Below, one piece after another: positions 1 through 8,675 of a stretch of DNA of 8,726 nucleotides. Source of the DNA: Anaerolineales bacterium (GTDB lineage Bacteria; Chloroflexota; Anaerolineae; Promineifilales; Promineifilaceae). Made by a program: the position numbers and the translations under genes. The stretch is from contig JAGQGA010000195.1 of the NCBI GenBank assembly GCA_020432595.1, forward strand, positions 1-8,726. Direction: 5' to 3'. Positions within the stretch are counted from its first letter, which is position 1. Each line of letters opens with the position of its first letter. The notes under the pieces are model-generated. The model searched no databases. It was not told where the DNA came from and saw only the letters and a list, made by a program, of their open reading frames with translations.

Positions 1-697
1 CCTGCCACTGCCCAATCGGCACTGTGGGGCGCTGTCCGGCCAGCAGTTCGTAGAGAATAATGCCCAGCGAATACACATTGCTGGCCTTTGTTACCGGTTC
101 ACCGGCCGCCTGTTCTGGCGATTCGTAGTCGAGTTCATCCACTGGTGTCAGGTCGCTGATGGTGTGGCGCGTCTGGCTGGGTGACTGTACCACCGTGAAG
201 CCGGTGAGCAAAGGGCGGTTGTGTTCATTGAGCAGAATTTTTTCTGGGCGCAAATCTTGGTGAATCACGCCAACCCGATGAATGGCGTTCAGGGCATCGG
301 CAATGTGCCCGGCCAGCTCCAGCATTTCTACGGGCGAACGATAGCCACCGCCGCGCCGCAGTTCAACCAGCCGCTGTGCCAAAGAAACGGCCGTAAAATG
401 ATCAATAGCCGCATAAAGCCGACCGTCATCTGTAAGCCCGCTGTCCAAAATGGGAGCAATGTTGGGATGCTTGAGCTGCGTAATGGCTTTAACCCGCCTG
501 TCAAATGCAGCCACTAACTGCGGCGAATCGGAAGCCTTTAATTCAGATACTTCAAGGAAGATAGGATGGTCGAGTGAGGCATCATCTGCCAGGTAGAGCG
601 CACTTGATCGGTCTTGAATAATGACCACGTGGCTACTAGGAATGTCTTGCATCGGTGTTTGCTCCATGGTTGCCAAATCGCTGTCCAATAGTTGCAT
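1..697 (-). CDS. Protein-kinase-fold protein, probable pseudokinase (partial, N-terminal 232 residues)
   Basis: I translated the minus strand from ATG at 697; the frame stays open to the window edge, so the C-terminus is missing. AAAGGG lies about 7 nt upstream of the ATG. The fold is that of a Hanks-type Ser/Thr kinase: LKHPNIAPILDSG (75-87), catalytic loop HQDLRPEKILL (146-156), SPEQAAG in the APE position (193-199) and NVYSLGIILYELLAGQRP (207-224). Key residues are missing. The beta-3 Lys of VAIK is Glu49 (IFLEV), the alpha-C Glu appears to be Arg68, the Asn after the catalytic loop is Lys153, and DFG reads TGF (165-167). No glycine-rich GxGxxG loop is visible before residue 45. Only the catalytic-loop Asp148 survives. 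I infer a scaffold or sensor pseudokinase rather than an active enzyme. Met11 or Met16 are alternative starts. Downstream domains, if any, lie outside the window. Confidence 0.85.
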   Translation of the reverse strand, partial: MQLLDSDLATMEQTPMQDIPSSHVVIIQDRSSALYLADDASLDHPIFLEVSELKASDSPQLVAAFDRRVKAITQLKHPNIAPILDSGLTDDGRLYAAIDHFTAVSLAQRLVELRRGGGYRSPVEMLELAGHIADALNAIHRVGVIHQDLRPEKILLNEHNRPLLTGFTVVQSPSQTRHTISDLTPVDELDYESPEQAAGEPVTKASNVYSLGIILYELLAGQRPTVPIGQWQ

Positions 698-794: not shown

Positions 795-1826
795 TTACAA
801 GGCAGAGGAAGCGAGTTGACCGCAGCCAGCACCAATGTCAATGCCGCGCCGCTGGCGCACGGTGCTGGGCAGGTTGTATTGTTGCAGAATGGTTTGGAAG
901 GTTTTAACGGCCGTTTGCCCCGTCGGCTCACCCCCATACCCCATTGTTGGGTTTAACGGAATCAGGTTAATGTGGGCATCCAGCCCATGCAGCAGTTGCC
1001 CAACGGCGTGGGCTTGCTCTGGCGTGTCGTTTTTGCCCGCAATCAGCGTCCACTCAAAGAAGATGCGCCGCTGCCGTTTGGTTGTGTAGTAGCGGCAGGC
1101 CGCGATCAGTTCAGCCAGCGGCCAGCGGCGGGCTGGCGGCACCAATGCCGCCCGTTCGGCATCGGTGGCGGCGTGCAGGCTGACAGCCAGCCGCACGGCT
1201 CGCCCTTCGTCGGCCAGCCGCCGAATGCTCGGCACCACCCCCACCGTGCTGAGGGTGATGTGCTTGGGGGCGATGGCTAACCCTTTGTGGTCGGTGAGAA
1301 TGTCAATGGCGGTCATGGTGGCATCGTAGTTGTGCAGCGGTTCCCCCATGCCCATAAGGACGATGTTGCGAAGCTGCTCCCCTTGCTGCGCCAGCGATTG
1401 CTGGACAAACAGCACTTGGGCCACAATTTCGCCGGGTGTCAGGTGGCGGCGGAACCCCATTTGGCCGGTGGCGCAGAAAACGCACCCCATCGCACAGCCA
1501 ACTTGGGTGCTGACGCAGGCAGTGGCGCGGCCTTTGAAGCGCATTTGCACCGTTTCGATGGTTTGGCCGTCGGGCAAGCGGAGCAAAAATTTGTGGGTGT
1601 AGCCGTCGCTGCTGTGGGTGGAAACGGCCGTTTGTAGCCCCTCGACCACCACCTCGGCCAACAGCCGTTCCCGCAAATCAGCCCGCAGCCCATCCATCTG
1701 CGCCAGCGACTGCACCCGCTGCTGGTAGAGATAACCCCACACCAGCTCGGCATGATAAGCACTGTAGCCCCACGCCGCCAACTGCCCCGCCAACCCTTCA
1801 CGGCTAAAATCATACAAATTCAACAT
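795..1826 (-). CDS. rlmN: RlmN, dual-specificity 23S rRNA A2503 / tRNA A37 C2-methyltransferase
   Basis: This radical-SAM enzyme methylates C2 of A2503 in 23S rRNA and, in characterised homologues, of A37 in some tRNAs. The protein is 343 residues, close to family size. The [4Fe-4S] cysteines are C111, C115 and C118 (CAMGCVFC). C104, seven residues before the first cluster Cys, matches the conserved Cys at that position in E. coli RlmN. C335 in GIDIGAGCGQL matches the methyl-carrying Cys, and E91 in IETVQM matches the catalytic Glu. The SAM-binding segment is VLMGMGEPLHNY (156-167). GEP here favours RlmN over the Cfr resistance branch. The ATG at 1826 is chosen because the family start fits it. 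The frame stays open to a TTG at 1919, which would add 31 unrelated residues. No good Shine-Dalgarno is seen; a small hairpin sits just upstream. Two copies of the AACGGCCGTT palindrome lie inside (906, 1623), both read as TAV. Confidence 0.96.
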   Translation of the reverse strand: MLNLYDFSREGLAGQLAAWGYSAYHAELVWGYLYQQRVQSLAQMDGLRADLRERLLAEVVVEGLQTAVSTHSSDGYTHKFLLRLPDGQTIETVQMRFKGRATACVSTQVGCAMGCVFCATGQMGFRRHLTPGEIVAQVLFVQQSLAQQGEQLRNIVLMGMGEPLHNYDATMTAIDILTDHKGLAIAPKHITLSTVGVVPSIRRLADEGRAVRLAVSLHAATDAERAALVPPARRWPLAELIAACRYYTTKRQRRIFFEWTLIAGKNDTPEQAHAVGQLLHGLDAHINLIPLNPTMGYGGEPTGQTAVKTFQTILQQYNLPSTVRQRRGIDIGAGCGQLASSAL

Positions 1827-1828
1827 GG

Positions 1829-1846
1829 CACCGATTGTAGTCGGTG
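1829..1846 (-). promoter_or_regulatory. Short hairpin directly upstream of the rlmN start
   Basis: The inverted repeat CACCGA-(6 nt)-TCGGTG gives a perfect 6-bp stem that ends 2 nt before the rlmN ATG at 1826. It occupies the place where a ribosome-binding site would sit, and no purine-rich Shine-Dalgarno is otherwise visible. It might limit translation initiation, or the match may be chance; a 6-bp stem alone is weak evidence. Confidence 0.3.
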
Positions 1847-1866
1847 ATCGAGAATTGGTAAACTTA

Positions 1867-1925
1867 AGTGCGTTGCACGGGGCAAACGGCCGTTGCTTAA
1901 CCAGAATCGCTCCGTGCAACGCACT
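1867..1925. repeat. 14-bp perfect inverted repeat with the AACGGCCGTT palindrome in its loop
   Basis: Arms AGTGCGTTGCACGG (1867-1880) and CCGTGCAACGCACT (1912-1925) are perfect complements separated by 31 nt. Each arm itself contains GTGC-GTT-GCAC or its complement, so each can also fold alone. The loop holds AACGGCCGTT at 1885-1894, the only non-coding copy in the window. The element begins 5 bp after the stop of the YCII gene when read on the minus strand, so it could act as a transcript end or processing site between the YCII gene and rlmN. There is no T-tract after it, so it is not a typical intrinsic terminator. Confidence 0.75.
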
Positions 1926-1930
1926 GGAAT

Positions 1931-2281
1931 CTAGCCAAACTCATATACGGGTCGAATTTCCACCGACCCATTGTGAACGTCGGGGATTTTGGCAGCAAAT
2001 TCGATGGCTTGGTCAAGGTTTTCGCAGTCGAGCATGTAATAGCCCCCAAGTTGCTCCTTGGTTTCGGCAAAAGGCCCATCGGTGGTGAGGGTTTGGCCGC
2101 TGCGAACGCGCACGGTGGTGGCGGCAGCCGTGGGATGCAGCGCATCACCACCCACTAGCACACCTGCTTTTTGGGCTTCTTCGTTAAATGCCCAATAGGC
2201 TTGCATCAGGGCTTGCCCCTCGCTCTCACTCATTTCGGCGTTGGCGGCTTCGCTGTGATAAATTAACAATAAATAACGCAT
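1931..2281 (-). CDS. YCII-related (DGPF domain) small protein
   Basis: The 116-residue protein starts MRYLLLIYHSE and carries the family hallmark TDGPFAETKEQLGGYY (residues 67-82), which is the DGPF signature followed by the E-x-K-E-x-L-x-G-Y/F block. The fold is a ferredoxin-like alpha/beta dimer related to YciI. Family members are small cytoplasmic proteins, often encoded near extracytoplasmic-function sigma factors; no such sigma factor is in this window. The biochemical role is not established. The ATG at 2281 has a good AGGAG about 6 nt upstream. No copy of AACGGCCGTT lies in this gene. It is upstream of rlmN on the same strand with a 104-bp gap that holds a strong inverted repeat, so co-transcription is uncertain. 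Confidence 0.9.
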   Translation of the reverse strand: MRYLLLIYHSEAANAEMSESEGQALMQAYWAFNEEAQKAGVLVGGDALHPTAAATTVRVRSGQTLTTDGPFAETKEQLGGYYMLDCENLDQAIEFAAKIPDVHNGSVEIRPVYEFG

Positions 2282-2320
2282 GATTTGCTCCTTTTAAAGT
2301 GGGGCACAAACTGTTTAGGC

Positions 2321-2446
2321 TCTTTGGGAATTCAGGGGGTTGACTTGCTTTTGACGTGGTGCGTGGTGCGTGATACGTGGCAAATGAACCTTCTAACGCA
2401 CCACGCACCACGCACCAAATTTGTCAACCCCAGGAGATCCGAAAGA
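2321..2446. repeat. 126-bp imperfect palindrome with heptamer-repeat inner arms
   Basis: Inner arms are a perfect 17-bp inverted repeat: CGTGGTGCGTGGTGCGT (2355-2371) and its complement (2396-2412), with a 24-nt loop. The inner arms consist of a 7-bp unit, GTGGTGC on the left and ACGCACC on the right; the right side runs on to three units (2396-2417). Outer arms 2321-2344 and 2423-2446 match at 19 of 24 positions, including a perfect 9-bp block GGGGTTGAC/GTCAACCCC. The element lies between the divergent YCII gene and the plus-strand Tat protein gene. It has no open frame of its own that looks real. It may be a mobile palindromic unit, a cruciform site or a bidirectional transcript structure; I cannot choose between these. 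Confidence 0.85.
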
Positions 2447-2588
2447 ACCACTGTCTATAGCGACCCCTTGAGGTTTGTTTCTATGATAACGACGAACAAG
2501 GCACGGTCAGATCGACAGGTGGTTAGGCTAATTGTAACCCAATTGTAGTAAGCTGACGGCTGAATTTTACACTGTGGAGGTGAACACG
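2447..2588 (+). promoter_or_regulatory. Upstream region of the Tat-signal protein gene, with a spaced direct repeat
   Basis: This AT-richer stretch leads to the plus-strand gene. AATTGTA occurs twice (2530-2536 and 2541-2547), 11 bp apart, about one helical turn, which would suit an operator or activator site. A good ribosome-binding site GGAGGTG (2576-2582) lies 6 nt before ATG 2589. The -35/-10 boxes are not convincing; TTGTAG (2543-2548) with a weak TTTACA 17 bp later is the best I can find. Confidence 0.35.
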
Positions 2589-3761
2589 ATGGCTTGGCAC
2601 CCAACCTGGAGCCGACGAACTTTTTTACGCTGGGCGGGAACAACGGCCGTTTCTGCCCTTTCCCTACCCCTTATTCCCCATCTGGCGGCGTTTTCGCCCC
2701 AGGCGGCGCGGCTGGAAAAATGGCCACCCAACAGTAATGTCATCATCGAATGGCGTTATTTGGCCGGCCGCATTACCACCGCCAGCGAGGACATTGGCTT
2801 TGTCATTTCAATTTCGTTTATCCGGCTGCCGGGCGGCGTGCGGCAGGAACTACTGGTGCAGCGGCAAGATTTGGCTGGTGACGGTGCGTTTGTGGGCAGC
2901 ACCTATGGGGGAACATTGACCTATGATGCGGCAACGGCGGGCTATACGTTTGTGGATGAAACGGCCGTTTCTGCTCTCAACTGGCGCTGGGATGAAAGCC
3001 AACAGCAGTATACGCTCTCGCTCTCTTCTCCAGAACTAACGCTGACAAACCTGACGCTGCGGCCACAGGGGGATCTGATTGCCGAAGGTGGCGACGGACA
3101 AATCTCCGTGGGGCGGGCGCAAGGGGTTCCCATAGCTTCCAATTATGATGCAGATTGGGTGACGATTTGGCAGAATGGCAGCGAAGTAGGGGTGGCGCGG
3201 CTGGATATGCAGGGGCTGCGACCCGACTTTCTGCGACAGCAACCAAATGCGGTACAGGACGTGGAGCCAGGTGGGTATGACCACAGTTGGTTTGCATTGG
3301 TGGGAGAGTTAGCGAATGGAACGGCCGTTTGGCTTTCCACTTGGCGCATTGAAGATGATGTCAGCGGGCCTTACTGGGTGGCAACCGTTGCCACCGGCAG
3401 CGGTGCGAGCTGGCAAATCGCCGCCTCGCTGACCGAAAGCAGCAGTGCTACCCCCTTGCAAGTGCGCGAACTAGCGTGGCAGCCGCTGCCCGATGCCAGC
3501 AGCGATCAACGTGCCGCCACTGCTTGGCACATTATTGCCCCCAACAACACCTTTGACCTCACCCTTCGCACCCCGCCCGGTCAATTTACCCTCAGCCCAC
3601 GCGGAGCCGATGTGCTGGGTCAACCGTTTATGGTGGAAGCCGTAGGCGCCAGTGCCAGCGGCACGGTGCTGGGTCAACCGCTCACCAACGTCAAATTGGT
3701 CGTGGCCGAATCCACACACGAGTTTTATACCGAAATGCTGCCGCTTGTCGTCAAGAAGTAA
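2589..3761 (+). CDS. Tat-exported AttH/CrtC-like (lipocalin-like) protein
   Basis: The 390-residue product starts MAWHPTWSRRTFLRWAG, a twin-arginine motif (SRRTFLR) followed by a hydrophobic stretch (about 15-36), so export in folded form is predicted. The mature part is rich in beta-strand. EWRYLAGRI (54-62) resembles the E-W-W-Y-x-G signature of the AttH/CrtC (hydroxyneurosporene synthase-like) family. YDHSWFALVGELANGTAVWL (230-249) resembles its second-half W-D-W-x-x-L-x-L-x-D-G block, and SASGTVLGQPLTN (355-367) resembles its C-terminal G-x-G block. Family members are double lipocalin-like barrels, some acting as carotenoid hydratases; many have no known function. No carotenoid genes are nearby. 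ATG 2589 is preferred over GTG 2574 because GGAGGTG sits 6 nt ahead of it. Three palindromes (2642, 2960, 3320) are read as TAV. Its stop overlaps the convergent glycosyltransferase by 11 bp. Confidence 0.7.
   Translation: MAWHPTWSRRTFLRWAGTTAVSALSLPLIPHLAAFSPQAARLEKWPPNSNVIIEWRYLAGRITTASEDIGFVISISFIRLPGGVRQELLVQRQDLAGDGAFVGSTYGGTLTYDAATAGYTFVDETAVSALNWRWDESQQQYTLSLSSPELTLTNLTLRPQGDLIAEGGDGQISVGRAQGVPIASNYDADWVTIWQNGSEVGVARLDMQGLRPDFLRQQPNAVQDVEPGGYDHSWFALVGELANGTAVWLSTWRIEDDVSGPYWVATVATGSGASWQIAASLTESSSATPLQVRELAWQPLPDASSDQRAATAWHIIAPNNTFDLTLRTPPGQFTLSPRGADVLGQPFMVEAVGASASGTVLGQPLTNVKLVVAESTHEFYTEMLPLVVKK
3612..3680 (+). repeat. 15-bp direct repeat within the Tat-protein gene
   Basis: GTGCTGGGTCAACCG occurs at 3612-3626 and again at 3666-3680, exactly 54 bp (18 codons) apart and in the same frame. 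Both copies encode VLGQP (residues 342-346 and 360-364). Either a small internal duplication or a structural repeat of one beta-hairpin could explain it. Confidence 0.6.
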
Positions 3762-4974
3762 GAGCATCATACACGGCCAAAATTTGCGCGGCAATAGGCT
3801 GCCAGGCGAAGCGGGTTTCCGAGAGGTGCTGGGCGTAGGCGGCCATTGCCTCTGCCTGGTCTGGATGGTCAAGCAGGTGGCGCATGGCGGCGGCGAGAGC
3901 GGCGGGGTCTTGCGGCGGGACAAGCAAGCCGCTTTGCCCTTCGTCCACCACTTCCGGCAGCCCCCCAACGCGGGTGGCAATGACGGGTCGGCCGAAGCTG
4001 TAGGCCACCTGTAGGGAGCCGCTTTGGGTGCTGTTGTGGTAGGGGTAAATAACGGCCGTTGCGGCCTTCATCAGCCCTCCCACCATCTCCGTGGGAATGT
4101 AGCGCAAATCAAACGCCACCTCATCGGCAATGCCCAAATCAGCCGCCTGCTGCTGCATGTCCGGCACGCTGACAAATTTCGTCGGGTAACCGGCCACAAT
4201 TAAATGGGCATCGGCACCAGTGGCACGAAGCTGGGCAAACGCCGCCAGCAGGTCGGGTATGCCTTTGCTGGGCATGATGTTGCCAAAGAAGAGAAAAATC
4301 GGCCGTTGGGGTGGGATGTCGTAATGTGCCCGCACGTCAATTGTGGGGTCATATGCCTCCACAAAAAGGTTTTCGTTGCCGTGGGGAATGACATGGGTAC
4401 GGCCGGCGGGGATGTCAAACAAAGACAAAAAGCGTTGGCGGTTGCTTTCGGCGTGGAAGAAAAGGGCGGCAAAGTTGGGATAAACGGAAGCGTAAAGCCG
4501 GTTGACCAGCCCGGTCAGCGGATTGCCGCCCCGTTCGCGCAGCTCAAATTCGTGGCAAATTTGGGTAAGTTGGAGACCGCGCCAGCGCAGGTAGTGTAAA
4601 AAGAACGCTTCAAAAGGGAAGTTGATTTTGCCAAACTGGATTAAATCCGGCCGTTGGCGCAGCAAAAAATGGGTAAGCTGCACCCAACCCCACAGCAGCC
4701 GCCCCGCCCGCATTGCCCGCCGCACCGTCCAGCGCAGCTTGCGCCACACCTTTTCGGCGACGTTACGCGGCGGCTGGGAGGATTGGGGGTCGGCGTAGGC
4801 CCAAAGGCGCAACGAGGAGACAACGGCGAAGTTGTGGGGATAGTCGGCCATTTCGTACTGGTCGGTGGTGACGAGGGTAACGTCTGCGCCGCATTCGGCC
4901 AGGGCGGTGCAAAGCTGGTAGATGTAGTGGATCATGCCACCTGTGCCGAGGAGTTCGACGACGAAGAGTTTCAT
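3751..4974 (-). CDS. GT4-family glycosyltransferase (A)
   Basis: The 407-residue GT-B fold enzyme transfers a sugar from an activated donor; donor and acceptor cannot be assigned. The N-terminal Rossmann domain opens with MKLFVVELLGTGGMIHYIYQ, with the acceptor-side glycine loop at 10-13. The donor domain (about 222-385) contains FLFFGNIMPSKGIPDLL (227-243) and SFGRPVIATRVGGLPEVVDE (326-345). The usual E-x7-E pair is not kept: the aligned residues are Ser315 and Val323 in NSTQSGSLQVAYSFGRP. I recall similar QSG-type sequences in this superfamily, so activity is not excluded. It is the last gene of the minus-strand cluster. ATG 4974 has no clear Shine-Dalgarno; the region upstream holds a 16-bp hairpin. 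Its stop (TGA, 3751-3753) lies inside the 3' end of the convergent gene. One palindrome (4051) is read as TAV. Confidence 0.92.
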   Translation of the reverse strand: MKLFVVELLGTGGMIHYIYQLCTALAECGADVTLVTTDQYEMADYPHNFAVVSSLRLWAYADPQSSQPPRNVAEKVWRKLRWTVRRAMRAGRLLWGWVQLTHFLLRQRPDLIQFGKINFPFEAFFLHYLRWRGLQLTQICHEFELRERGGNPLTGLVNRLYASVYPNFAALFFHAESNRQRFLSLFDIPAGRTHVIPHGNENLFVEAYDPTIDVRAHYDIPPQRPIFLFFGNIMPSKGIPDLLAAFAQLRATGADAHLIVAGYPTKFVSVPDMQQQAADLGIADEVAFDLRYIPTEMVGGLMKAATAVIYPYHNSTQSGSLQVAYSFGRPVIATRVGGLPEVVDEGQSGLLVPPQDPAALAAAMRHLLDHPDQAEAMAAYAQHLSETRFAWQPIAAQILAVYDALTS

Positions 4975-4986
4975 ATAAAGAATGCC

Positions 4987-5019
4987 AGACCTCCGAGGTT
5001 TTTAAAACCTCGGAGGTCT
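4987..5019. repeat. Perfect 16-bp hairpin between the two glycosyltransferase genes
   Basis: Arms AGACCTCCGAGGTTTT (4987-5002) and AAAACCTCGGAGGTCT (5004-5019) are perfect complements around a single T. In practice this is a stem of about 14 bp with a 4-5 nt loop. The element abuts the TAA stop of the upstream glycosyltransferase (5020-5022) and ends 12 nt before the start codon of the next gene. It nearly fills the 45-bp gap. It could stop or attenuate transcription, or protect the upstream message end. No U-run follows on the minus strand, so a classical intrinsic terminator is not supported. Confidence 0.85.
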
Positions 5020-6153
5020 TTATGACAGCAGCGTGCGATAGAGAGATGCGAGTTCCGCCGCCTGCCGCTGGATGTTAAATTTTTGTTCGACGAGCAAACG
5101 GCCGTTTTCCCCCATTTCCCGCCGCTTGGCCTCATCTTGCAGCAGGGCAATCGTCGCTTGCGCCAATTGGCTGGCACTGCCGGGGGGGACGAGCAAGCCG
5201 TTATAGCCGTTTTGCACCATTTCCGGCACGCCGCCAACGGCCGTTGCCAGCAGCGGCAGGTGTAGTGCCATTGCCTCCATCAGCACCGTGGGCAGGGCAT
5301 CGGTGAGGGTGGGCAGCACAAACAGGTCGCTGGCAGCCAGCAGGTCGGCCACGTCGCGGCGCTGCCCGGCAAAGTGGACGCGCTCATCAATGGCAAGCTG
5401 TGCCATCTGTGCTTCCAGTTCTGGCCGATAGTCGCCATCGCCAACAATGAGGTAGTGGGCATCGGGAACGGCCGTTAATACCGCTGGCATCGCGTCCAAC
5501 ATAAACTGAATTCCCTTGGGCTGGCGCAGCACGGCCACGGTAGTCAGCAGTTTGGCGTGGGCGGGGATTTTGAGGGTGGTACGAACGGCCGTTTGGCACG
5601 CCAAATCACGCGGTTCAAAATGGCTTAAATCAATACCGTTGTAGAGCGTGACCACCTGCGCCGGGGCAAACTTGGCGGTGGCAATGTGGTGCTGCCGCGT
5701 TTCCTCCGACACGGCCACAATGCGCTGGCAAAAGTGGCGCAGCACCCACCACATCAGCCGAATGCGCCGCGCCGTTTTGCTGCCCGGCTGGAGTTCGTCA
5801 ATGGTGTGGAGGGTGCAAACGGTGGGCAGGCGCAACATGGCTGCTGCCACCGTGCCGAGCGTGTTGGCAAGCTCAAGCTGGGTATGGACTAAATCCGCTT
5901 GGTGTTGACGGAAGTAGGCGATGAGGCGAGGAACGGCCGTTATATCGCGCAAATAAGGCACCGGTAGCAAATCAACCGGCACGCCCAGTGCCGCCACCTC
6001 CGCCGCCAGCGGGTTGCCGTGCCGTTCTTGCAGCGCACAGACGCGCAGGGCAAATCCATTGGCCTGCAAATAGCGCAAATAAGGGATGAGCAGCCGTTCT
6101 GCCCCGCCCATGCCCAGGCCGTCAATGAGGGTGATGATGGTTGGCTTTTCCAT
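5020..6153 (-). CDS. GT4-family glycosyltransferase (B)
   Basis: The 377-residue retaining GT-B glycosyltransferase begins MEKPTIITLIDGLGMGGAER, with the G-x-G-G-A-E-R loop typical of GT4 N-terminal domains that bind a lipid-linked or glycan acceptor. The donor-binding domain (about 197-350) includes LLTTVAVLRQPKGIQFMLDA (202-221), YLIVGDGDYRPELE (234-247), FAGQRRDVADLLAASDLFVL (261-280) and LPTVLMEAMALHLPLLATAV (287-306). The second Glu of E-x7-E is present (E293); the first is Asp285. The ATG at 6153 is chosen over an upstream in-frame TTG at 6213 because the family alignment begins there and the extra 20 residues are encoded by a heptamer repeat. No strong Shine-Dalgarno is seen. Five palindromes lie inside (5097 read NGR; 5236, 5467, 5584 and 5932 read TAV), the highest density of any gene here. 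Confidence 0.94.
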   Translation of the reverse strand: MEKPTIITLIDGLGMGGAERLLIPYLRYLQANGFALRVCALQERHGNPLAAEVAALGVPVDLLPVPYLRDITAVPRLIAYFRQHQADLVHTQLELANTLGTVAAAMLRLPTVCTLHTIDELQPGSKTARRIRLMWWVLRHFCQRIVAVSEETRQHHIATAKFAPAQVVTLYNGIDLSHFEPRDLACQTAVRTTLKIPAHAKLLTTVAVLRQPKGIQFMLDAMPAVLTAVPDAHYLIVGDGDYRPELEAQMAQLAIDERVHFAGQRRDVADLLAASDLFVLPTLTDALPTVLMEAMALHLPLLATAVGGVPEMVQNGYNGLLVPPGSASQLAQATIALLQDEAKRREMGENGRLLVEQKFNIQRQAAELASLYRTLLS

Positions 6154-6164
6154 GAGGATAATTA

Positions 6165-6224
6165 GAGATTGGAGATTGGAGATTGATAAAGGTTCATAGT
6201 CCCCAATCTCCAACCTCCAATCTC
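6165..6224. repeat. Inverted heptamer array between phosphotransferase and glycosyltransferase B
   Basis: The left arm is three tandem copies of GAGATTG (6165-6185). The right arm is CAATCTC CAACCTC CAATCTC (6204-6224). The 21-nt arms are complementary at 20 of 21 positions with an 18-nt loop. The phosphotransferase stop codon (6194-6196) lies in the loop, and the right arm encodes most of that protein's last residues. The left arm ends 11 nt upstream of the next start codon. It could form a strong stem in the polycistronic message. Confidence 0.88.
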
Positions 6225-7216
6225 CTTTTCATAATAGCCAAGTTAGCAAAAATGGTACGCCACAACATAGCGTCATCTTGCACAATGCCAAACGTTTCTA
6301 CCGGACGGGCTGCGGCGGTGACACATGCCCACAAAAAACCGAGGCGCGGTGGCAGCAGGCTGTAGAGCATGGGCTGGCCGTAGGCGGTGAGGTAGGCAGG
6401 GATGAGCGTTTGCGCCCAGCTATTTAGTTGTTGGGCTGCCCGTTGTCCGCGCTGTTCCGGGGTGCCGGAGCCAGCCAGAGCAACGGCCGTTGCCAGCAGC
6501 AAAAAATAGAGATCAAAGCTCGGGTCGGTTGTCCAGGCAGAAAATTGCCAGTCAATGAGTGCCAACTGGTCGTCATCAGCGCGAAGCAGGATGTTGCCGG
6601 GCCAATAGTCGCCGTGCTGGATGAGTTGGGTGGCGGCGGTGGTGGTGTGGTCGGAAACGGCCGTTTCTACCTCCCGCAGTGCCACCTGTTCTTGCTGTTG
6701 CAAGGGAAAAAGCGTGGCAAATCGCTTGGCATACGGTTCGTGGCGCAGTTGCAAATCGGCCGTGCGGGGGCGTGCCGTTTGTTCATGCAGCAGCCGCAGC
6801 CAGACGGCGGCACGTTGCAGCAGTTGGGTCAGCGCAGCCAAATTGTTAGCCGCGACCCGCAGGCGGCTGGTAAACACGGCACCGGCAAAAAAGTCGGTCA
6901 TCAGAACTTGATCAGCCCCATTTTGCCCCAGGTGGAGGGGGCGGGGAATGCGGCCGATGGCTTGATCACCTAGCTGCTGCCAAACGGCCGTTAATTGCCC
7001 AAATTCATGTGAGATTGTTTGGCTGTACTCCGGCCAGCGGCACGCTTTGGCAACGAGCAATGGCTGCCGCTGCCCTTTAGGTGTGCCCAAAAAGACAACA
7101 TTATCATGCAGGGCGGTTCCGCCATTGGTCAGCAGCAGCCAATCCAGCGCGGGTGGCTTTGCACTGTACCAGGTGTGCCATTGGTTGCCAACAACGGTGT
7201 TGAGGTAATCAATCAT
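6194..7216 (-). CDS. APH-fold phosphotransferase (aminoglycoside/choline kinase-like)
   Basis: The 340-residue protein has the bacterial small-molecule kinase fold of the APH family. Catalytic loop HGDYWPGNILL (201-211) supplies Asp203 and Asn208. IDW (221-223) gives the metal-binding Asp222. DPSFDL (231-236) is the usual follow-up. K57 in LLVAKACRW and E71 in HEFGQL are good candidates for the ATP-site Lys/Glu pair, after a glycine-containing loop at 32-44. All key residues are present, so it is probably active. The substrate is unknown; in a glycosyltransferase cluster a sugar, polyol or lipid headgroup is more plausible than an antibiotic. ATG 7216 overlaps the upstream gene's stop by 8 nt (ATGATTGA), suggesting translational coupling. 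The last ten residues, RRLEVGDWGL, come largely from an inverted heptamer repeat. Three palindromes (6482, 6656, 6983) are read as TAV. Confidence 0.92.
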   Translation of the reverse strand: MIDYLNTVVGNQWHTWYSAKPPALDWLLLTNGGTALHDNVVFLGTPKGQRQPLLVAKACRWPEYSQTISHEFGQLTAVWQQLGDQAIGRIPRPLHLGQNGADQVLMTDFFAGAVFTSRLRVAANNLAALTQLLQRAAVWLRLLHEQTARPRTADLQLRHEPYAKRFATLFPLQQQEQVALREVETAVSDHTTTAATQLIQHGDYWPGNILLRADDDQLALIDWQFSAWTTDPSFDLYFLLLATAVALAGSGTPEQRGQRAAQQLNSWAQTLIPAYLTAYGQPMLYSLLPPRLGFLWACVTAAARPVETFGIVQDDAMLWRTIFANLAIMKRRLEVGDWGL

Positions 7217-7922
7217 GGTGCGGCCTGTGGGCAAGCCGCCACACGTAATAACCGACAACAGCAAACAGCAGGCCGTAAATGGCCTCTTTTAGCTCGACGG
7301 TGCTGTGTTTCAGCGGGTAGCTGCTTTGGTACCAAGCACTGCCTTCAAAGAGGGGGCGAAAGGCGTTGGCGACGATGTAATTGAGCAGAAAGAGCAACCC
7401 CAGCAACCACGGGGGAACGGGAGTAAGTTTGTTGAACCAGGTGCCGGTGGGGGGGTGAAGAACGGCCGTTAATGGTACCACCAGCGTAAACCCCAGGGCA
7501 AACAGGGTGAGCAATCGGTCGGTGTTGAGCAGGCTGTTGTTCTGGATCAGTTCCAGATTATGAAAGTTAAACTCATCCTGGGTGTTGATTTCGCGCATCT
7601 CCTCAGGTGTGTCAAAATCAAAGATGCGCTGCCCCCAGCTAATTTCTTCCCCGGCGATAAAGATGAGCAGGGCGGCTAGCCCCACGTAGGCAAGCTGTTT
7701 GAGCCAGAAAAACGGCCGTTTTGCCCGCCGCTCCCGCCACCACGCACCCAAAAAACACAGACCGGCGACGAAAAAACCGGCCGTTCCCACGCTTTCAATT
7801 AGCCCGTCTTCTTTGATAAGCCAATCGAGCATAGGCTGACCGACCAACAGCACGCCATAACTGGCAACTACTAGCACGGCTAACCATATTAAAACTAATC
7901 TGTTTATGCGGTAGTTCTGCAT
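7209..7922 (-). CDS. Six-helix integral membrane protein of unknown function
   Basis: The 237-residue protein has six predicted membrane segments at about 8-28, 42-62, 74-91, 136-155, 172-190 and 212-231. Between helices 3 and 4 is a polar, aromatic segment with GEEISWGQRIFDFDTPEE (91-108) and NTQDEFNFHNLELIQNN (113-129). I recall this EEISWGQR...HNL pattern from uncharacterised bacterial membrane proteins but cannot name the family. Charged residues (E92, E93, H121, E123) beside a membrane helix could form a catalytic or ion-binding site; this is inference. ATG 7922 has GGAG about 8 nt upstream. The gene is coupled by an 8-nt overlap to the phosphotransferase, so it probably works in the same pathway, for example on a lipid carrier. 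Two palindromes lie inside: 7461 (TAV) and 7711 (read KRPF). Confidence 0.85.
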   Translation of the reverse strand: MQNYRINRLVLIWLAVLVVASYGVLLVGQPMLDWLIKEDGLIESVGTAGFFVAGLCFLGAWWRERRAKRPFFWLKQLAYVGLAALLIFIAGEEISWGQRIFDFDTPEEMREINTQDEFNFHNLELIQNNSLLNTDRLLTLFALGFTLVVPLTAVLHPPTGTWFNKLTPVPPWLLGLLFLLNYIVANAFRPLFEGSAWYQSSYPLKHSTVELKEAIYGLLFAVVGYYVWRLAHRPHHD

Positions 7923-7953
7923 CGTTTTGCTCCAGTGATACCATTTTTGGTCT

Positions 7954-8009
7954 GCAAGTAACAGGTGGCAGGTCGCAAGTTGAGTTGACAGAGAAGACCT
8001 GCTACTTGT
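7954..8009. repeat. Degenerate heptamer array and inverted repeat in the spacer of two cluster genes
   Basis: From 7954 the sequence reads as 7-bp units: GCAAGTA, ACAGGTG, GCAGGTC, GCAAGTT. The stretch 7961-7974 (ACAGGTGGCAGGTC) pairs with 7996-8009 (GACCTGCTACTTGT) at 12 of 14 positions. The two mismatches would be G-U pairs in a plus-strand RNA but A-C mismatches in a minus-strand RNA. The loop is 21 nt. It fills the middle of the 96-bp gap between the methyltransferase-like gene and the membrane-protein gene. Nothing else is visible in this gap except the GGAG site of the latter. Confidence 0.7.
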
Positions 8010-8018
8010 GGCAATAAA

Positions 8019-8675
8019 TCAGGCCAAATCTTTACGCGCCACAATGCCGTAAGCGGGCAGCAGATGGGGCAGCAGCCGCTGCCAGGGGTCGTGCTGTAGC
8101 AAGCGCCTGACCCACGCTGGCCGTACCTTTTGCGCTACCCATGACCCGGCAATGGTAGCCGTCAGCGGGACAAAGGTTGCGGGCTGCGCCAGATTGGGCA
8201 TCATGCCCACCATTTCGATGGGGGTGAAATGGTGCTGCCGCAGCAGCCGGGCAATATGCGCCGGTGTCCAGCTTGCTCCCGTTTGCCGCTGCCGCCGGTA
8301 ATGCCAACGGCCGTTAAACCCCACATAAATAATGCCATTTGGCCGCAGCCATTGCCGCGCCAGTGATAAATCGGCTGTTGGTGCGTGCCAAAAGCCGTGG
8401 GGCAGGGCAACCAGATCAAGCTCTGTTAAGGACAGGGCGGTCAGCGTGTCGGTGACTAACCAGTGTAAACGGCCGTTTTCCCGCCAGCGTGGGGGCAAAA
8501 CGGCCGTTTTTGCCGCAGAATCTGTTACCACCACCACCTGTTCATAGGTGGCAAGCAGTCCGACTGCCGCGTCGGGGTGGGGCAAGCTGATGAGCAGTGC
8601 TCGCCCCCCCGACGGCATTCCCGCCAGAAACCGCCAATCGCTGCTGGCCGATGGCATCCAGCCATCAGCGATCAA
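8019..8675 (-). CDS. Class I SAM-methyltransferase-like protein, degenerate SAM motif
   Basis: The 218-residue protein has the second half of a class I methyltransferase: strand DLVALPHGFWH (87-97), helix then LRPNGIIYVGF (110-120, the usual L-R-P-G-G block) and a C-terminal LPAYGIVARKDLA. The first half is unusual. Where motif I (D-x-G-x-G-x-G) should be, the segment reads ALLISLPHPDAAVGLLATYE (26-45), so the SAM-binding glycines are not visible, although VVVVTDS (47-53) could be the motif II strand. It may be a divergent or inactive member. The start is TTG 8675, which overlaps the stop of the upstream gene (TTGA) and has GAGG 5 nt before it; ATG 8657 (212 residues) is the alternative. Three palindromes lie inside (8306 and 8468 read NGR; 8499 read TAV). 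Confidence 0.7.
   Translation of the reverse strand: MIADGWMPSASSDWRFLAGMPSGGRALLISLPHPDAAVGLLATYEQVVVVTDSAAKTAVLPPRWRENGRLHWLVTDTLTALSLTELDLVALPHGFWHAPTADLSLARQWLRPNGIIYVGFNGRWHYRRQRQTGASWTPAHIARLLRQHHFTPIEMVGMMPNLAQPATFVPLTATIAGSWVAQKVRPAWVRRLLQHDPWQRLLPHLLPAYGIVARKDLA

Follow-up and report, generated by a model that had tools for sequence, protein, structure and literature searches.

A highly iterated palindrome in the Chloroflexota, with words that change within one Anaerolineae family

We describe a palindromic decamer, AACGGCCGTT, that recurs through contig JAGQGA010000195.1, an 8,726-base stretch of DNA from an Anaerolineales bacterium (hereafter the window, which always means the whole stretch). 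Together with the genomes of relatives, this word and its inner octamer, ACGGCCGT, reveal a real system of the highly iterated palindrome (HIP) type in a second phylum, the Chloroflexota, in which the words switch within one family and the sites are strongly conserved. HIP1 (GCGATCGC) has been known since the 1990s and has no agreed function; the work that we found concerns cyanobacteria only, and selection on HIP1 is reportedly the subject of a study by Xu, Lawrence and Durand. A second phylum with a different word, which is gained, lost and replaced within one family, allows the HIP question to be put to a comparative test; the likely reader would be a protein whose changes or losses accompany those of the word.

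The window contains 20 exact copies of AACGGCCGTT between positions 906 and 8508, and 200 dinucleotide shuffles yielded a mean of 0.01 copies and a maximum of 1, in line with the twenty perfect copies and the expectation of about 0.01 given in a first-pass annotation of this DNA. Markov models of order 1, 3 and 4 predicted 0.02, 0.14 and 0.97 copies, respectively; the order-4 value is too high because the 5-mers within the word come mostly from the word itself, and a test at maximal order has no content for this word in the window. ACGGCCGT was found 21 times, 20 of them within the full decamer, and all 30 one-mismatch variants of AACGGCCGTT combined accounted for 4 occurrences. Nineteen decamer sites fall in seven genes (RlmN, two glycosyltransferases, a phosphotransferase-like gene and three open reading frames (ORFs) without a Pfam match). 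The remaining one, at 1885–1894, probably lies in a spacer upstream of the likely RlmN start; the RlmN form in the protein database (343 aa, 795–1826) supports a start near 1826. This agrees with the first-pass annotation, which gave at least seven genes and one spacer; its mention of both strands means nothing, because AACGGCCGTT is a perfect palindrome. The flanks vary among the AACGGCCGTT and ACGGCCGT sites, which are dispersed in unrelated genes, in all frames and outside ORFs, and do not constitute a mobile repeat. The sites are the following (window coordinates; strand '.' throughout).

386..395: AACGGCCGTA, a one-off variant of the decamer that retains the octamer ACGGCCGT; the only ACGGCCGT outside a full AACGGCCGTT
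906..915: AACGGCCGTT in the RlmN gene, exact match
1623..1632: AACGGCCGTT in the RlmN gene, exact match
1885..1894: AACGGCCGTT, probably in the spacer upstream of RlmN (343-aa RlmN form), exact match
2642..2651: AACGGCCGTT in ORF 2574-3761, exact match
2960..2969: AACGGCCGTT in ORF 2574-3761, exact match
3320..3329: AACGGCCGTT in ORF 2574-3761, exact match
4051..4060: AACGGCCGTT in glycosyltransferase 3751-4974 (gene by Pfam), exact match
5097..5106: AACGGCCGTT in glycosyltransferase 5020-6213 (gene by Pfam), exact match
5236..5245: AACGGCCGTT in glycosyltransferase 5020-6213, exact match
5467..5476: AACGGCCGTT in glycosyltransferase 5020-6213, exact match
5584..5593: AACGGCCGTT in glycosyltransferase 5020-6213, exact match
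5932..5941: AACGGCCGTT in glycosyltransferase 5020-6213, exact match
6482..6491: AACGGCCGTT in phosphotransferase-like gene 6194-7264 (gene by PF01636), exact match
6656..6665: AACGGCCGTT in phosphotransferase-like gene 6194-7264, exact match
6983..6992: AACGGCCGTT in phosphotransferase-like gene 6194-7264, exact match
7461..7470: AACGGCCGTT in ORF 7209-7922, exact match
7711..7720: AACGGCCGTT in ORF 7209-7922, exact match
8306..8315: AACGGCCGTT in ORF 8019-8675, exact match
8468..8477: AACGGCCGTT in ORF 8019-8675, exact match
8499..8508: AACGGCCGTT in ORF 8019-8675, exact match

The nearest relatives of the window's RlmN (67–74% identity, first seven loci) came from metagenome-assembled genomes named Chloroflexi, Anaerolineae or Ardenticatenaceae, and further relatives in the protein database, with the names Anaerolineales and Chloroflexota, showed 91% (a partial sequence) and 81% identity. 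In an RlmN tree of 41 rows, the window formed a lone branch among members of an Anaerolineae family, with no firm position among them. Eight whole genomes of RlmN relatives carried from 7 to 4,045 copies of AACGGCCGTT. We counted ACGGCCGT in 52 genomes of this one family and in a class sample of 396 genomes. More than 1,000 copies (1,189 to 14,867) were present in 22 of the 396, all of which belong to the 52-genome family, and every other genome had 657 or fewer. A density of at least 1 per kb was observed in 25 of the 52 family genomes (about 1,050–2,100 per Mb, with genome sizes rounded), and 203 copies were counted in 100 kb of genome G365, where an order-1 model predicts 2.1. These counts bear out the earlier suggestion of a genome-wide habit and not a gene-family motif; in the relatives the word runs through the genome and is not confined to a cluster such as the window might have represented. 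Most of the 52 genomes had two RlmN matches, with roughly 70% and 55% identity to the window copy.

The preferred word differs among the relatives. We ranked all 256 palindromic octamers on stretches from the family genomes, 51 of 52 being covered (G390 was left out; the stretches of G407, G410 and G416 consisted of N only, and several others were shorter than 6 kb). ACGGCCGT was the top-ranked octamer in 27 of the 51, its rank in G311 resting on 3 copies. Other palindromes took this place in G102 and G400 (TCGGCCGA, 1.73 and 1.35 per kb), in G008 (GCGGCCGC, 1.50 per kb) and in G403 (TGCCGGCA, 1.46 per kb), the last of which was noticed because the reversed-pattern control of the count is the word of G403 itself. 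Eleven sampled family genomes (G043, G075, G409, G295, G122, G332, G159, G286, G354, G415 and G209) showed an enrichment of CGGCCG of about 3–15 fold (order 1) with no strong choice of outer base, and the CGGCCG count was not above that of GCCGGC in G001, G311, G402 and G403. The RlmN tree placed the two TCGGCCGA genomes as sisters (support 97/83), adjoining L018, which is likewise rich in CGGCCG and TCGGCCGA, and G008 as sister to the hexamer-only group (support 95/87). ACGGCCGT was flanked by A..T in 29 of 42 cases in G005, in 9 of 20 in L057 and in 20 of 21 in the window, and by C..G in 43 of 203 in G365. The unit common to the family is ACGGCCGT, with its core CGGCCG, and the window lineage has the sharpest extension seen.

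The counts also revealed that some CGGCCG-rich genomes have almost none of the mirror hexamer GCCGGC (G159 has 132 copies and G008 has 51) and that CGGCCG is scarce in G403, which uses TGCCGGCA (447 in 4.0 Mb). GGGCCC, GCATGC and CCGCGG were depleted within and outside the family, as was AGGCCT, less so outside, probably as a result of ordinary avoidance. CGGCCG stood 9.4-fold and 3.6-fold above the order-1 expectation in L018 and L068 (Promineifilum), given which the CGGCCG excess may extend beyond the family.

The sections of Elhai (2015, PMC4390886) on which we rely here describe cyanobacterial HIPs as GC-rich palindromic octamers with extensions, deviations at the outer positions, alternate words and linked methylases, at densities of 300–2700 per Mb. 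Measured against that description, the Chloroflexota word resembles HIP1 and the alternate HIPs as a GC-rich palindromic octamer that occurs 1–2 times per kb and is spread through genes; its outer positions are the most variable, it has palindromic extensions, and other palindromes replace it in some relatives. Four features of HIPs in Elhai's sense (a genome-wide extreme excess, dispersal, outer deviations and extensions, and alternate palindromes) were found; a fifth, a methylase that is specific for the core and generally accompanies a frequent word, is taken up below. It is not HIP1 itself, since the word differs from GCGATCGC, with a core of CGGCCG instead of CGATCG and an outer base that is A, T or G by lineage, and its carriers are Chloroflexota and not cyanobacteria. 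In addition, unlike in cyanobacterial HIPs, no methylase was found paired throughout with the Chloroflexota word. The parallel with HIP1 under a different sequence, drawn in the first-pass annotation, is closer than was claimed there, given the variable outer bases and the other palindromes in some lineages. No report of the word in Chloroflexota was found among the literature matches listed, in a search that most subscription journals lay outside. One paper containing ACGGCCGT has it, in the portion available, in a table of absent words, and the available main text of a study of methylation motifs in wastewater (PMC12772301), which names an Anaerolineae genus, contains no CGGCCG.

The sites proved to be strongly conserved at the DNA level, in a comparison that the first-pass annotation had proposed and that we carried out in the relatives. 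Across ten related genome pairs, counted in one direction, ACGGCCGT was intact at the aligned orthologous position in 53–95% of cases vs 12–62% for octamers of the same composition, and the sites were higher in 10 of 10 pairs. In a smaller set of twelve pairs, counted in both directions, 76–94% of the sites were kept vs 18–60% of the controls and 7–57% of other palindromes; the flanks of the sites were slightly less conserved than control flanks in 12 of 12 pairs. At fourfold-degenerate third positions where the first two codon bases agree, 91–99% were kept within the word vs 48–84% for identical codons elsewhere (six pairs). Symmetrised profiles, measured on ACGGCCGT genomes and not on the window, outlined an 8-bp footprint: the eight bases were kept at 97–98% and the next base at 73% in the group of G239, G365 and G398 (83–86% identity), at 93–95% and 76% in the group of G006, G406 and G007, and at 84–89% and 61% towards G002. 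The 66 sites in 33 RlmN genes occupied 18 alignment positions, where random placement gave 64 and never fewer than 59, a clustering to which kinship and shared amino acids contribute. With up to two sites per kb, this near-complete synonymous conservation means that some of the silent positions in these genomes are subject to a constraint that codon models ignore.

These results bear on the idea that the word has no reader and stems from a mutation or codon habit that depends on context. The commonest coding use of ACGGCCGT is Thr-Ala-Val (TAV) in frame 0, and there are fewer sites outside ORFs in the window and in G008, as such a habit would have it; however, the word occurs in all three reading frames and outside genes, and identical codons are kept far less often where they are not part of the word. 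We regard this explanation as very improbable. The self-propagating mutation bias suggested in the first-pass annotation is likewise unlikely as the sole cause, because of the 91–99% synonymous conservation and the sharp footprint; a repair bias that protects the sites is still compatible with the data.

We also examined gain, loss and spacing. In 992 kb of genomes with high counts, variants that differ from the word at one inner position numbered 269 vs 290–363 expected, with the inner C-to-T variants ATGGCCGT (44), ACGGCCAT (46) and ACGGTCGT (15) at 1.2–1.9 fold above expectation. Variants at the outer positions numbered 563 (of 832 one-off variants in all) vs 153–246 expected; the excess was about 2.5–6.5 fold for variants that begin with G or T and for their mirrors, and it was not clear for those with C. 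Six polarised tests, partly overlapping, gave 21 losses and 3 gains; of 15 losses through a single base, 14 changed C to T or G to A. The spacing of ACGGCCGT was slightly more even than random (coefficient of variation 0.93 vs 1.02), and 53 gaps were shorter than 40 bp vs 120 expected, 23 of the expected ones being in a bin closed to non-overlapping copies. The ratio of densities outside and inside long ORFs was 0.6–1.1 in G365, G007, G002 and G006.

The known DNA uptake sequences, such as those of Neisseria and the Pasteurellaceae, are non-palindromic and retain many one-off copies. In density and persistence our sites resemble those of Neisseria and the Pasteurellaceae, which would suit a palindromic uptake signal spread by recombination in competent cells that favour word-bearing DNA; however, the palindromy of the word and the lack of an overall excess of inner one-offs set it apart from known uptake words, and we consider an uptake signal improbable.

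From the palindromy, the footprint and the conservation we infer a symmetric DNA protein as the reader, and it seems to us fairly probable that AACGGCCGTT is this lineage's HIP-type palindrome, maintained as the recognition site of a DNA protein with two-fold symmetry. Under this proposal, the core is CGGCCG; about half of one Anaerolineae family would have narrowed it to ACGGCCGT, and the window lineage further, to the decamer. The word would be a site for a sequence-specific, two-fold-symmetric protein, which may be a binding or modifying enzyme in chromosome maintenance, for example in strand-directed repair. A site would be needed about every 500 bp, and selection or site-protecting repair would remove mutated sites and keep new ones; if the specificity of the reader drifts, the whole set of sites would slowly be rewritten.

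Several observations weigh against this proposal. The genome-wide evidence comes from the genomes of relatives and not from that of the window. Conservation was lowest towards G002 (35 of 53 and 24 of 45, with controls at 12–13%), the conservation profile dips at every third base outward from the word, so that codon wobble accounts for some of the fall just outside the octamer, and the conservation test included few sites beyond long ORFs (14 over six pairs, 11 of them kept). The evenness of spacing is only mild, and the density was lower outside than inside ORFs in the window (0.78 vs 2.69 per kb) and in G008 (0.73 vs 1.70 per kb). Equal conservation would arise in the absence of selection if the sites mutated less often owing to a repair process. 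Finally, no reader protein was found in the searches that follow.

The alternative closest to Elhai's proposal for HIP1 is that an orphan methylase marks CGGCCG and that mark-directed mismatch repair creates and fixes the palindromes, which would have no other use. The alternate words, the outer-position deviations and the 1–2 sites per kb fit the cyanobacterial pattern, and the predominance of C-to-T and G-to-A among the losses also speaks for it. However, Elhai's GmeC repair model, as set out in the sections cited above, accounts for an outer G and not for an outer A or T, and the expected enzyme was not universal. Among PF00145, PF01555 and PF02384 we found no universal ordinary member, the search not extending to PF02086, PF07669 and other families. 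PF00145 (5-methylcytosine, m5C) had a match in 21 of 44 genomes; among the 23 with more than 1,000 copies, 10 had no match (G002, G003, G005, G007, G209, G219, G360, G365, G375 and G390). PF01555 (N6/N4) had matches, many of them strong, in 41 of 44 genomes among the matches listed; a closer re-examination of ten genomes showed that an ordinary enzyme is lacking in G365, where the matches are two fragments of a single split-domain protein, and in G209, where there is no match, and that the match is weak in G005 and G007. PF02384 was matched in 44 of 52 genomes, marginally in G003 and not in G005, G375, G411 and G209, among others.

The weak PF01555 matches led to one candidate, a split-domain amino-methylase of about 660 aa (L273:1273-3249), with a glycine-rich S-adenosylmethionine motif near the N-terminus, cysteine pairs in mid-protein and DPPY near the C-terminus. 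By Pfam it is above the PF01555 cut-off in two separated pieces, and by NCBIfam it has a weak DUF1156-type match (76 bits vs a cut-off of 1000). It is present, whole or broken by contig ends, in 40 of the 52 family genomes (41 minus the marginal G403), and it is missing in three (G001, G311 and G403) of the four genomes where CGGCCG is no commoner than GCCGGC (Fisher p = 0.034, or 0.074 at another threshold, with no kinship correction; the criterion is crude and some genomes pass it narrowly). In G365 its six neighbours (two LysM proteins, a dihydrouridine synthase, a BipA-like GTPase and two DUF proteins) include no restriction gene by Pfam, and several neighbours are common to four close genomes. 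In contrast, it was found in 39 of 48 CGGCCG-biased genomes and is missing in the other nine (G159, G286, G354, G415, G416, G209, G411, G141 and G412). Outside the family, 21 class genomes carry near-full-length versions (48–64% identity, E 1e-200 or below), and a twofold or greater CGGCCG excess was seen in three of eight sampled carriers and not in five. The DPPY motif presumably indicates an adenine target, against which stands the absence of adenine from GCGGCCGC. The split-domain methylase remains a candidate and not a demonstrated reader, and we judge the methylase-driven explanation unlikely. The first-pass annotation, whose interpretation is partly supported overall, had suggested a methyltransferase site: a candidate enzyme does exist, but with exceptions in both directions, and the suggestion is not established.

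The search for relatives of this candidate gave 1,694, and the names among the 120 listed include Candidatus Leptofilum, which is only a hint as to the origin of the window. No close solved structure was found (best E 0.004), and of 22 pattern matches in viral contigs none was confirmed. The m5C enzymes of G286 and G141 match enzymes of the HhaI and HaeIII types; the models matched by five such proteins, Dcm-superfamily and type II, give no target and were set aside as a guide to it.

Two known systems share the centre of the word. Phosphorothioation by Dnd takes place at GGCC in Streptomyces lividans. Like that target our word has a GGCC core; unlike in Dnd, DndC exceeded the cut-off in only 5 of the 52 family genomes (any match in 10), and the genomes with the word do not as a rule carry dndC. 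In Synechocystis, GGm4CC methylation by M.Ssp6803II affects DNA stability and replication and is also linked to repair, and here too GGCC lies at the centre of our word; unlike the word, the M.Ssp6803II target is a tetramer, for which the portion of that paper available makes no claim of a HIP-type excess (PMC6560206), and the Chloroflexota family has no universal ordinary PF01555 enzyme.

More tentatively, the recognition-site proposal may be taken a step further, to an independent Chloroflexota HIP system in which a reader other than a methylase switches specificity between genera and thereby rewrites thousands of sites, many of them intragenic, as ACGGCCGT, TCGGCCGA, GCGGCCGC or TGCCGGCA. 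We hold this possible, with less confidence than the recognition site itself.

Of 20 loci around m5C methylases, taken from genomes with more than 1,000 copies, 3 (L091, L096 and L102, in G006, G259 and G286) contain no ACGGCCGT. The joint density of all 20, 0.91 per kb, is somewhat low, as if newly acquired DNA gained the word slowly. In the window, a further sequence, CACCACGCAC, occurs 4 times, counting both strands, and some of these occurrences lie within the longer CACCACGCACCA.

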